Assembly: GCA_021496505.1 (NCBI GenBank)
Contig: CP053031.1
Location: 1,604,001 to 1,668,000, forward strand
Reading direction: 5' to 3'
DNA: 64,000 bases
DNA from: Thermoleophilia bacterium SCSIO 60948
GTDB lineage: Bacteria; Actinomycetota; Thermoleophilia; Solirubrobacterales; 70-9
Shown here: positions 4,856 to 14,036 of the stretch, one piece after another
Layout: each line of letters begins with the position of its first letter
Numbering within the stretch: position 1 is the stretch's first letter
The notes under the pieces: model-generated
Databases searched by the model: none
Seen by the model: only the letters and a program-made list of their open reading frames with translations
Told to the model about the DNA's origin: nothing
Program-made: the position numbers and the translations under genes

Positions 4856-4900
4856 GACGCGCCCGGCAGGATTCGAACCTGCGACCTCATGCTCCGGAGG
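4856..4900. repeat. attL core, 45-bp copy of tRNA-Arg 3' half
   Basis: This is identical to 13972-14016. It keeps only the tRNA 3' half (acceptor, T-arm, variable region and 3' side of the anticodon arm), so it encodes no functional tRNA. The sequence after it (from 4901) differs from that after the right copy, which marks the element boundary. Confidence 0.9.
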
Positions 4901-5032
4901 ACTGACCGGACCTGAGGCTCCAGATGCTCACAAGCGCCTGACTCCCGCATCCTAGAGCGCCGAGCGAGCCGCAGGCCTCCGACCCACCGAGAGCCGAGAC
5001 CCCATCAGATTCGCGCTGATTCGGAAGGGTTT

Positions 5033-5046
5033 GGGCACTAGTGCCC
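5033..5046. repeat. 14-bp perfect palindrome near attL
   Basis: GGGCACTAGTGCCC is its own reverse complement and contains the stop codon of the HEPN gene. Its half-site TTGGGCAC resembles the tandem AATGGGCAC copies at 13869-13888 near the other end. It could be an integrase arm-type site or part of a terminator; there is no direct proof of either. Confidence 0.4.
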
Positions 5047-6360
5047 GTTGGCTTGCCCGGCCGCCCAGGGGACGGTCTCGGTCTCCATGTCACTTCGAGC
5101 GATCTCGAGGCGCGACCAGTACGAGCCGCGATAGCCCAGTACCCGCAGGATCAGGAGCTCGAGGTACCAGGTCCCGAGCTTCCAGGCTTCGAAGAGCTCT
5201 TCGCCGTCCGGCCACTCGGGGTCGTCGATTGACTTCGGCGGGTGGATCAGGGAATTCCTCACGTCGAAGAGAATCTCGGGTCCTCCGACGTCGCGCTTCC
5301 CAGAAGCTCGCGCACGCCGTTCCAGGGCGTCGAACCCGGCTGGGATCTCCAGCGGCAGGCCGGCCCAGCCGACGAGTAGGCGGGCAGCCGCAGCAGCCGT
5401 GATCTTCCCGATCGTCTGCTGATCCGCCAGGCCCTCGCGGCGCAGAACACCCCAGCTCAAGAGCTCGATCCCCGAACAGGCCATCGGGATCCTTACGTCT
5501 AGGACCTCGGAGCCATCGCAGAAACAGAGGACGTTGATCGCCCTCTCAACGATCAATTCCCAGCTCCGGGTGACGAGCTCCCTCTCGTATCGGGCGGCGA
5601 CCTCAGGCAAGGCCTGGGGTACAAGGTGAGGAGGGCACCAGCCCAAGGTCGTCCGGCCCGACCGTGCGCGGGGCGGCCCCCACTCCGCCCAAACGACGCG
5701 CCCCGTTACATCGAGCCCGCAAACCGGCCCGACGCCGACCTCACGATTCGCGACGAGGCTCAGGACATGGAACAGGCGGTCGGTGAGCCGATCTACCTCG
5801 TTCTCGACGACGAGCTCTGTCGGTGGAACCGCTTCGATCACCGCGCCGAAATCGCGATCGTCTAGGTACTCCTCATGCACCGTTAGGGCGAACCGCAGCT
5901 CCCAGCCATCGAGCGAGAACGCGATCTGACCCTGGCTAACGCCGGTCCTAATTCGAGCCTGAAGCGCGCCGGTCAGGTGGATCACGAAGCGCCGCGCGTC
6001 GGCGATATCGCCGGCAGCCATCGGTTCGAGCGCCCGCTCGCTCCGAAACCATCCGCGACCGCGCTCCCTCGGCGCGGCCTCGAATCGCTCCGACCCCGGA
6101 GGCTCGGGCTCGACGCCCCGCGGGACACGAATCCGGGCGAACCCGTCCTCCGTCGCAAGCATCATTGCGCCGACTGTGCTCGTAGGCCCTTCGACCTTCG
6201 CGACGAGCTCAGTCTTGGGAAAGAGCGACAGCTCGACCTGGCCCGGTACGCGCTGGGGGTTCGCCTCGTCGCCGACTTCCAGGTCTCCGACATACAGGAC
6301 GATTCGATCCTCGCCGGGCTCCCGGCGATAGATCGGATGAATGGGCGCAGGCTCCGACAC
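5038..6360 (-). CDS. HEPN-domain protein (candidate anti-phage RNase)
   Basis: The 440-residue protein has an N-terminal beta-rich part (IVLYVGDLEVG, VELSLFP) and a mostly helical C-terminal half. The latter carries DVRNSLIHP at about residue 385, an R-x4-H motif that is the catalytic signature of HEPN ribonucleases, followed by KLGTWYLELLILRVLGY. This architecture recalls ApeA-like HEPN defence proteins, a remote assignment. It is the only gene at the attL end and points toward the left boundary, a typical position for cargo. An ATG start at 6360 is used. Toxicity, partner and target are unknown. Confidence 0.7.
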   Translation of the reverse strand: MSEPAPIHPIYRREPGEDRIVLYVGDLEVGDEANPQRVPGQVELSLFPKTELVAKVEGPTSTVGAMMLATEDGFARIRVPRGVEPEPPGSERFEAAPRERGRGWFRSERALEPMAAGDIADARRFVIHLTGALQARIRTGVSQGQIAFSLDGWELRFALTVHEEYLDDRDFGAVIEAVPPTELVVENEVDRLTDRLFHVLSLVANREVGVGPVCGLDVTGRVVWAEWGPPRARSGRTTLGWCPPHLVPQALPEVAARYERELVTRSWELIVERAINVLCFCDGSEVLDVRIPMACSGIELLSWGVLRREGLADQQTIGKITAAAAARLLVGWAGLPLEIPAGFDALERRARASGKRDVGGPEILFDVRNSLIHPPKSIDDPEWPDGEELFEAWKLGTWYLELLILRVLGYRGSYWSRLEIARSDMETETVPWAAGQANGH

Positions 6361-6455
6361 CGGCTTTTCTTAGCATCGCGCCTGCAGCACCGCTGCAGTC
6401 GCCGCTTTTCTCTCCCCGATCCCGACAGGCCGTAGAAGAAGGGGCCCGATCGACC

Positions 6456-12027: not shown

Positions 12028-12112
12028 CGGCGTCGGAGCTGTCACTCCGGACGCGACCCGCAGGCTACCTGCGTGCCTCGTCAGAGCGGCTCTCCGTCAG
12101 AGAGGAGTCGCG

Positions 12113-12331
12113 ATGCGACTAGTTGAAGCCGAGGCGGCGCCCGAGGAGCGAGCGCATGACGACCTCGACGAGCTCCTGCGGGAGGCGATGGTCGCTTGCC
12201 GGAAGGCCGAAGACGCGATCTACGAGGCGCGCGACCGGGACCTGCGCAGGGTCGAGCGGTGTCTCGGATCAATGGCCCGGTTGGTCGAAACGCACCTCGG
12301 GATGCGCCGACGCGAGAGGGGAGTCGTCTGA
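12113..12331 (+). CDS. Small helical protein upstream of integrase (72 aa)
   Basis: A GAGGAG site lies just upstream of ATG 12113. The protein is acidic then basic and fully helical (DDLDELLREAMVACRKAEDAI). Its stop overlaps the next ATG. I do not recognise the family; it may be a coiled-coil accessory. Confidence 0.6.
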   Translation: MRLVEAEAAPEERAHDDLDELLREAMVACRKAEDAIYEARDRDLRRVERCLGSMARLVETHLGMRRRERGVV

Positions 12332-12711
12332 TGGCCGCTGAGACTGTCACGGTCAGGGTTCCGGCTGAGCACCGGGCCTACGTGCGCGACCGCGTCGAGA
12401 CGCTCCTCACGGGGCCGGCGGAGAAGCTCACCCACTTCATCGGGCCGACCCCGAAGAAGGAGATGCGCGAGGCGATGATCGACGTCGCGCACGCGAAGGA
12501 TGCGCTCGACCAGCTCGGCTGGGACGGCGAGGAGGGTGACGTGGACCTTTCGGTTCCGAGCGCCTACTGGGCCGAGCTCCACGCCGAGATCCGCGAGTGG
12601 ACGCTCGAAGACGAGCCCGGAGACGACGACGCAGCCGCCGGCCATCGCGCGATCGCCGATCGCCTCGACTGGCTCGGCTCGGTCACGCCCGAGCAGACGG
12701 TCGCCGCCTGA
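12331..12711 (+). CDS. Hypothetical element protein (126 aa)
   Basis: ATG 12331 overlaps the preceding stop (TGATG), and its own stop overlaps the integrase ATG in the same way. It starts with a beta strand (ETVTVRVPAEHRAYVRDRVE), followed by mixed helices and an acidic end. I recognise no family. Coupled translation with the integrase suggests a role in recombination control or maintenance. Confidence 0.6.
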   Translation: MAAETVTVRVPAEHRAYVRDRVETLLTGPAEKLTHFIGPTPKKEMREAMIDVAHAKDALDQLGWDGEEGDVDLSVPSAYWAELHAEIREWTLEDEPGDDDAAAGHRAIADRLDWLGSVTPEQTVAA

Positions 12712-14036
12712 TGGCGCGTCCTGCCACGGGCGAGGTTGTGGTACGCCAAGCGAAGCGCGGACGAGTGTTCGCGCTTCGCTTCCGTGCCTATGGCCGGCGC
12801 CGCTACGTGACACTGGGATCGAGCGCAGACGGTTGGGATCGGACCCGAGCCGAGGCTGAGCTGCGTCACCTCCTGGCGGACGTGGAACGAGGCATCTGGC
12901 AGCCGCGATCCGCGCTGCAGCCCGCCGAGCCAGAGACTGCGCCGACCTTCCATCGCTTCGCTAGTGAGTGGATGGCAGCTCGACGCCCCGAGCTTGCCCC
13001 GCTCACCATCGCCTCCTACGAGTGGGCGCTCACGCAGCACTTGCTCCCGTTCTTCGCTGAGCATCGCCTGGACTCGATCACCGCGCGAGAGGTGGACCGC
13101 TACAAGACGGCGAAGCTTGCCGAGGGTGTCCTCTCCCCCGGCTCGATCAACCAGACGCTGACTCGTCTGTCGAGCGTTCTCGAGGTCGCGGTCGAGTACG
13201 GACTAATCCCATCGAACCCAGCGACCGGACGCCGTCGACGCCTTAGGGCATCCCCTCCTTCGCGGCCCCACGTCGAACCCGAGCAGCTCCCGGCGTTGCT
13301 CGACGCGGCACAGGCCTTGCGCACCGCCGGCGGCCGCGCCAGTGACTACCGGCAGATTGCGGGCCCGCTCTTGGCTCTGCTCGCTGGAGCCGGGCTGCGC
13401 ATTGGCGAGGCTCTCGACCTGCGCTGGCTCGATGTGCGCCTCGCGGCGCTCAGTATCCGCGTTCGCGATTCGAAGACCGCGGCGGGTCGACGCGACGTCG
13501 ATCTGACCCCGGCCCTGGTCGACGAGCTCACAACGCTCCGGGCCCACAAGTCGGGATCCGGACCCGACGACCGGATCTTCGGCGCGCTCGATCGCCACCG
13601 AGTCCGTGAGCGGATCCTCAAACCGAGCGTCACGGCGGCTGACGTTGAGCTCGAGCGACGCGGGCAAGAGCCGATCGGCTCGACGACCCTCCACGGCCTG
13701 CGCCGAACCTACGCGAGTCTTCGCTTCGCTCTCGGCGACGACCCCGTCTACGTCGCCGAGCAGCTCGGGCACACCGAGCCCGCGTTCTCGATGCGCGTCT
13801 ACGCGAAGGCCGCGAAGCGTCGCGAGAGACTCCGCGGATCGACTCTCGAGAGCTTCGACAGAGCCCTCGAATGGGCACGAATGGGCACTGGCGAACACGC
13901 TGCGAACGGGCTCTCGGCGACGCTGACGCTCGAGGAGAGCCTCGAAGCCGCTCTAGAGAGCGACGACGGGAGACGCGCCCGGCAGGATTCGAACCTGCGA
14001 CCTCATGCTCCGGAGGCATGCGCTCTATCCAGCTGA
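12711..14036 (+). CDS. int: Tyrosine integrase
   Basis: The 441-residue protein has an N-terminal arm-binding-like region, a SAM-like core-binding domain (about 78-170) and the catalytic domain. The active-site residues are visible: Arg230 (AGLRIGEAL), Lys255 (DSKTAAGR), His328-x-x-Arg331 (HGLRRTYAS), His354 (LGHTEPA) and Tyr364 (MRVYAK). The last 20 or so codons (from RQDSNLRP) are the tRNA-Arg gene read in antisense, so the C-terminus depends on integration at this site. It sits directly inside attR, the standard layout. Confidence 0.95.
   Translation: MARPATGEVVVRQAKRGRVFALRFRAYGRRRYVTLGSSADGWDRTRAEAELRHLLADVERGIWQPRSALQPAEPETAPTFHRFASEWMAARRPELAPLTIASYEWALTQHLLPFFAEHRLDSITAREVDRYKTAKLAEGVLSPGSINQTLTRLSSVLEVAVEYGLIPSNPATGRRRRLRASPPSRPHVEPEQLPALLDAAQALRTAGGRASDYRQIAGPLLALLAGAGLRIGEALDLRWLDVRLAALSIRVRDSKTAAGRRDVDLTPALVDELTTLRAHKSGSGPDDRIFGALDRHRVRERILKPSVTAADVELERRGQEPIGSTTLHGLRRTYASLRFALGDDPVYVAEQLGHTEPAFSMRVYAKAAKRRERLRGSTLESFDRALEWARMGTGEHAANGLSATLTLEESLEAALESDDGRRARQDSNLRPHAPEACALSS
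13869..13888. repeat. Tandem 10-bp direct repeat near attR
   Basis: GAATGGGCAC occurs twice in direct succession, about 85 bp from the attR core, and its core resembles the half-site of the palindrome at 5033 near attL. It lies in the integrase C-terminal coding region, so coding constraint is an alternative explanation. Confidence 0.4.
13972..14016. repeat. attR core, 45 bp
   Basis: This is identical to 4856-4900. It covers the 3' half of the intact tRNA-Arg gene from the anticodon loop, the usual crossover region for tyrosine integrases that use tRNA genes. The right-hand copy preserves a functional tRNA. Confidence 0.9.

Follow-up and report, generated by a model that had tools for sequence, protein, structure and literature searches.

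A 64,000-nucleotide window of the Thermoleophilia bacterium SCSIO 60948 genome (contig CP053031.1, positions 1,604,001 to 1,668,000) was found to carry a 9.1-kb integrative element in which an HK97-fold major capsid protein (MCP) was the one head protein recognized. The element is probably (about 0.6) a phage satellite resembling the phage-inducible chromosomal islands (PICIs), with the MCP forming a small head, wholly or in part, and a helper phage giving the portal, protease, terminase and tail. This reading is supported by the recurrence of capsid-only elements across phyla, by their consistent size and by a low ratio of nonsynonymous to synonymous substitutions (dN/dS) in the MCP.

The element lies between two direct repeats of 45 bp that are 100% identical, and the right copy falls inside a tRNA-Arg(CCG) gene, the sole tRNA gene of the window. 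Other exact repeats of at least 30 bp in the window were unrelated to this pair. The tRNA gene extends to 14047, past position 14016 where the earlier, sequence-only reading of this DNA had ended, and at its 3' end the integrase gene covers attR as well as most of the tRNA gene. The core features are as follows.

attL, 4856 to 4900, unstranded: perfect 45-bp direct repeat
attR, 13972 to 14016, unstranded: perfect 45-bp direct repeat
tRNA-Arg (CCG), 13974 to 14047, minus strand: integration target, which stays intact
MCP, 6907 to 8262, plus strand: HK97-fold, 451 aa; PF05065 (E=7e-32), TIGR01554 over residues 11-445, phrog_10 (E=2e-43)
61-aa protein, 8259 to 8444, plus strand: weak DUF7210 and phrog_3129 similarity; overlaps the MCP stop codon
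XRE-family helix-turn-helix (HTH) regulator, 9329 to 9847, plus strand: candidate repressor from a profile match; start picked from the sequence
AAA_25 RepA-like replication ATPase, 9847 to 11037, plus strand: PF13481 (E=8e-34) on the longer open reading frame (ORF) 9763-11037; start read from the sequence
Excisionase-like (xis-like) HTH protein, 123 aa, 11306 to 11677, plus strand: phrog_66 (E=0.0015, weak)
Tyrosine integrase, 12711 to 14036, plus strand: PF00589 (E=2e-10), PF14659, PF22022

The element thus combines the integrase and specific attachment site of a PICI with a regulator, excisionase and replication module, in which the XRE-family HTH and the AAA_25 ATPase are clear and the xis-like protein is weak by profile. 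The 123-aa protein was also 49-52% identical over 62-79 aa to proteins adjoining two other integrases in the same genome. A Shine-Dalgarno sequence (AGGAGG) precedes the ATG of the MCP gene. Stop-to-start overlaps between the HTH and ATPase genes, and between the MCP and 61-aa genes, suggest operons. Terminase, portal, prohead protease, tail and lysis families gave no match among the scanned element products (Pfam, NCBIfam, PHROG), nor did any TerS family. The sequence-only reading had described this same combination of att repeats, integrase, XRE regulator, RepA-like ATPase and full capsid gene, with the other phage modules missing, and every part of that description held.

That reading had also proposed a search for 8-12 kb elements with an integrase, HTH, replication ATPase and MCP and without a terminase, and such elements were recovered from several phyla. 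Within the order, 10 of 232 genomes (the host included) had an MCP match at E<1e-5, and five other genomes had MCP relatives at E<1e-20 in a phylum-wide search. Scans of genome contigs and viral contigs with single MCP sequences gave no match. A pattern was built from a three-sequence alignment, as a six-sequence alignment was too diverse for patterns, and its scan of GTDB species returned 16 MCP loci. These included Streptomyces, Nocardioides, Micromonospora, Altererythrobacter, Qipengyuania and Sphingomonas, together with metagenome-assembled genomes (MAGs) of Myxococcota, Chloroflexi and Gallionella. The closest MCPs were ~30-47% identical to that of the window and occurred in capsid-only elements of Actinomycetota, Pseudomonadota and Myxococcota, and probably also of Chloroflexota; the nearest of all was from a Chloroflexi MAG (L068, 47% over 312 columns).

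Genes in the relatives were called by a simple ORF and GC3 (third-codon-position GC) method, and small ORFs there are tentative. Pfam searches of two sets of relative elements found PF05065 in 9/9 and 5/5 and an integrase or serine recombinase match in nearly all; most also had an AAA_25, primase or helicase match. A single small terminase was among these products (L056 set). Among the families listed (25 of 32 in one scan and 25 of 90 in another), none was a portal, TerL or protease family. Separate searches of the genomes for TerL and PF04860 divided the loci into capsid-only ones and those with a portal or TerL gene adjoining the MCP gene, namely L053, L065, L067, L069 and L073, and relatives from the order such as L014 and L015. 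Among the capsid-only genomes, the PF04860 portal, the portal family searched genome-wide, was absent from the host genome (G000, 3.42 Mb), from G194, G076, G212, G512, G516, G368 and G389, and from the genomes of L060, L061, L063, L064, L068 and L071. Many relatives had the gene order integrase, HTH, replication gene, short ORF, MCP, small ORF. The order in the window was short ORF, MCP, small ORF, HTH, replication gene, xis-like gene, integrase, which places the integrase and the MCP at opposite ends of the element. Two relatives that are otherwise capsid-only had one tail-like gene after the MCP (L062, 11055-13676, tape-measure-like; L063, 11268-12596, Dit-like), both judged by eye and without a Pfam match.

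Exact direct repeats enclosing an integrase and an MCP were found in the window and in 13 relatives. The repeats were perfect, tRNA-type and 44-63 bp long in 12/14 elements, and the targets were the tRNAs for Arg, Leu, Ala, Glu, Thr, Asn, Pro, Arg, Met, Lys and Cys, plus a tRNA-like sequence without a called gene (L013). The remaining two had shorter repeats with no tRNA found (L058, 22 bp; L064, 19 bp). The 14 bounded elements measured 7,535-10,321 bp, with a mean of 9,160 and a standard deviation of 805; L056, L018, L068 and L071 had no clear att repeats and were left out of these statistics.

Where pairs of relatives could be measured, the MCP was under purifying selection. The MCPs of L060 and L062, which occupy different tRNA genes, were 90% identical with a dN/dS of 0.07, and of three proteins compared the MCP had changed least (integrase 62% and upstream ORF 46% identical). 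The L058/L059 pair gave a dN/dS of 0.27 for the MCP; a value of 1.0 for the integrase of this pair was discarded because the compared ORFs were probably not true integrases. On a tree of 39 MCPs, the capsid-only label was clustered (6 changes against a shuffled mean of 13.2, with 0/500 shuffles as low), and the nearest MCPs mostly belonged to other capsid-only elements. The starred branches of this tree force at least five changes, so the capsid-only state arose or was lost several times. Phage MCPs were distant, with matches <30% identical in 50,697 phage records and a best overall match of ~33% over part of the protein. The host genome, a single contig, held one MCP homologue. Four genomes had a second MCP match beside prophage portal or TerL genes, and these were distantly similar (E 1e-10 to 1e-13). 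The satellite MCP is therefore not a copy of that of a known helper, given that resident prophage MCPs are distant and no phage record is close.

The structure prediction that the sequence-only reading had suggested as a test of shell completeness returned a complete HK97 body. In this model, made with AlphaFold2 on 17 MCPs (mean pLDDT 79.5), a delta domain (residues 6-66) is predicted as two helices, 6-33 and 40-66, with pLDDT mostly >90, and a disordered linker (70-101) leads into the body. The best structural matches were the prohead I capsids of D3 (Z 18.6) and HK97 (Z 17.9), and the capsid of EcCI2, a capsid-forming PICI (cf-PICI), matched with a Z of 17.1. Delta domains scaffold assembly and are afterwards cut off by a protease, and the HK97 MCP expressed alone is able to form proheads.

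In the satellite reading, a helper phage would infect the cell and the island would excise through its 45-bp site and replicate with the RepA-like ATPase. The MCP would then form a small procapsid, either alone or in a mixed shell with the helper MCP. The helper would supply the portal, the maturation protease that removes the delta domain, the terminase and the tail, and the packaged DNA would be the island of ~9.2 kb or a concatemer. Because ~9 kb of DNA falls short of what a T=7 head takes, packaging would call for a reduced head or for concatemers, and PICIs are known to have both. The likely gain would be a head that fits the island and keeps out the helper genome, which is much larger; we infer resizing or exclusion of helper heads, as the earlier reading had suggested. 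For the shell itself, we lean slightly toward one made by the MCP on its own, which is mildly favored by the distance of these MCPs from all collected phage MCPs and from resident prophage MCPs.

The mixed shell is a branch of the satellite reading that we regard as a plausible minority outcome. There the MCP would take pentamer positions among helper MCP hexamers and force small heads, for which Ccm of SaPIbov5 is an exact precedent, with a delta domain that is cleaved in particles and no island protease (PMC8569155). The element likewise encodes an MCP homologue with an N-terminal delta domain and no recognized protease. A compatible helper MCP would be expected, yet neither the phage records nor the resident prophage MCPs were close, a point that unsampled helpers weaken. 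It is somewhat less probable, and on balance unlikely, that the element functions as a satellite using helper heads exclusively, its own MCP being either dispensable or used for something secondary, such as recombination. Transfer of EcCICFT073 was normal when its capsid gene was missing (PMC6092414), and PICI capsid genes have been reported as not required for transfer (PMC10111431). Such a passenger gene fits poorly with the strong purifying selection on the MCP, with the retained delta domain and linker, and with the retention of no head gene but the MCP in elements from several phyla.

Decay of a prophage that kept its capsid gene by chance would account for the missing head genes, for the portal or terminase beside the MCP in the five loci named above and for the apparent tail-like gene in L062 and L063. 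Against it stand att repeats without a mismatch, uninterrupted ORFs, operon genes that overlap, the similar layout and size of 13 other elements and the low dN/dS. The sequence-only reading had named a close complete prophage with a recent deletion as the case that would overturn it. This was sought and not found: phage MCPs were distant, the nearest MCPs mostly capsid-only, and the element itself had no recognized terminase, portal, tail or lysis genes. Decay was rejected as a general account on recurrence, size and dN/dS, and we consider it improbable for this element. Least probable is a domesticated, encapsulin-like nanocompartment, or a decoy that prompts or prevents infection by phages. 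Encapsulins do share the fold (VIA-align Z 15-17), but prohead capsids scored equally high or higher (Z 17-19), no encapsulin family was among the Pfam or NCBIfam matches, and the phage-type delta domain and linker, the TIGR01554 and PF05065 matches and the setting in a mobile element with a phage-like small neighbor weigh against this reading.

Several points weigh against the satellite reading. Excision, induction, packaging and particles are predicted for an element known here from sequence alone. It has no known helper, and no PF04860 portal resides in the host. Neither a cos nor a pac site was identified in the element, and their recognition would need the helper. How the relatives were detected and delimited may account for part of the narrow size range, and the terminase-only elements described below are of the same size. 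The MCP of the window has no close relative on which selection could be tested. A satellite MCP can be dispensable, as the EcCICFT073 deletion indicates (PMC6092414), and assembly of an own shell cannot be assumed because Ccm alone forms no capsids (PMC8569155).

The remaining genes of the element are mostly short.

Cargo protein, 440 aa, 5038 to 6360, minus strand: unmatched in Pfam, NCBIfam and PADLOC, and in PHROG without a convincing match
74-aa ORF before the MCP, 6456 to 6680, plus strand: ORF call
263-aa protein, 8557 to 9348, minus strand: ORF call; family scans gave no function
91-aa ORF in the operon of the ATPase gene, 11034 to 11309, plus strand: ORF call
78-aa ORF, 11674 to 11910, plus strand: phrog_645 (E=6e-10)
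72-aa ORF, 12113 to 12331, plus strand: ORF call
126-aa ORF, 12331 to 12711, plus strand: ORF call

The 440-aa cargo protein had remote relatives, all hypothetical, encoded by four plasmids (26-28% identity across about half its length), and a defense role was rejected as PADLOC gave no match. A short ORF in the place of the 74-aa ORF was common among relatives, with homology not established, and a small ORF at the place of the 61-aa gene was frequent in relatives and phages.

The GC content of the element was 68.3%, compared to ~70% outside it. A degenerate third att-like copy lies at 4060-4104 (28 bp exact, 4061-4088), 796 bp left of attL, and is possibly the scar of an older insertion into the same tRNA. 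Beyond the right end, 212 bp from the 3' end of an SDR gene are repeated at 14684-14895 and 19917-20127 (94.8% identical). The ~5 kb between these copies include a gene for type IIG restriction-methylation (15249-17951, PADLOC E=8e-213) and are possibly a separate insertion or duplication. Elsewhere in the host genome, two further integrases (L045 and L046) sit beside HTHs resembling the xis-like protein. The L045 integrase was 48% identical to that of the window; both loci were without a capsid gene, and att repeats were not found.

The one convincing TerL of the host genome lies ~460 kb away, inside another element (L047, 8938-18352; G000:C1 ~2,072,437-2,081,852). This second element spans 9,371 bp between 44-bp repeats at tRNA-Arg(TCT) and encodes an integrase, TerL, TerS, AAA_25 and an AlpA-like HTH, with no MCP homologue. 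Relatives of its TerL within the order (L081-L084) were similar integrase, TerS and TerL elements in which no capsid gene was recognized, one of them 9,701 bp at tRNA-Glu (L084), and several had a 64-84 aa ORF or a ~200-aa protein after TerL. Capsid-only and terminase-only elements therefore coexist in the order. A division of labor between the two was unsupported, with 1 co-occurrence against 0.2 expected in 232 genomes (P ~0.2).

The sequence-only reading was supported in seeing a capsid-only, satellite-like integrative element and not supported in treating capsid-only satellites as previously unknown, as precedents exist in SaPIbov5, in Gram-negative PICIs and in candidate PICIs of Mycobacterium. 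SaPIbov5 is an integrative satellite with a head-shaping MCP homologue that has a delta domain, no island protease and a helper that provides the remainder; Ccm sits in pentamers of T=4 procapsids (PMC8569155). It differs in being staphylococcal, with a Ccm of 355 aa confined to pentamers, whereas the MCP here has 451 aa and may form all of its shell or a part. An MCP was reported in 21/29 reference Gram-negative PICIs (PMC10111431). EcCICFT073 has capsid and head decoration genes, transfers without either and carries no TerS, and PmCI172, with an MCP gene, has heads ~37-39 nm across (PMC6092414). Like the element, these islands have an integrase, a regulator and a replication gene, then an MCP with a small neighbor; unlike it, they are gammaproteobacterial, 10-20 kb long and served by lambda- or Mu-type helpers, whereas the element is 9.1 kb long and has an XRE regulator and an AAA_25 ATPase. 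Candidate PICIs of Mycobacterium were defined only by an integrase and an MCP, some also having terminase or scaffold genes, and four of those shown were missed by SatelliteFinder (PMC10654092). The element has both genes in one region and resembles these candidates and phiRv1/phiRv2, by their description as integrase-plus-MCP elements, several of them in tRNA genes (PMC10654092). The cf-PICIs encode an MCP, protease, portal, connectors, TerS, TerL and HNH (PMC10690885); the element shares with them, for example with EcCI2, its own HK97 MCP and differs in having the MCP alone. Small Clostridioides difficile plasmids (L093, 8.3 kb; L094, pCD-ISS1, 7,991 bp) also carried a lone MCP, ~30% identical and in the same size class, with a helicase and a DNA-binding protein; unlike the element, they are extrachromosomal and have no integrase among their listed genes.

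These precedents make the element a known satellite type in a new lineage. What is new here is the lineage, the coherent cross-phylum MCP group, of which a limited literature search found no description, and the narrow size range. We put forward tentatively that these elements form a widespread satellite family with the shell protein only, in which the MCP alone would build a complete small capsid with a capacity of ~9-10 kb that accepts foreign portals, terminases and tails. If this is true, a single gene frees these elements, across phyla, from the capsid protein of their helpers. It is an open question why a lone capsid gene is found in many PICIs, as it resizes heads in SaPIbov5 and is dispensable in EcCICFT073. 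Capsid-only satellites recur in bacteria whose satellites are hardly studied, and these compact elements of several phyla offer a clean natural set for testing whether one shell protein suffices for a satellite to have its own head.

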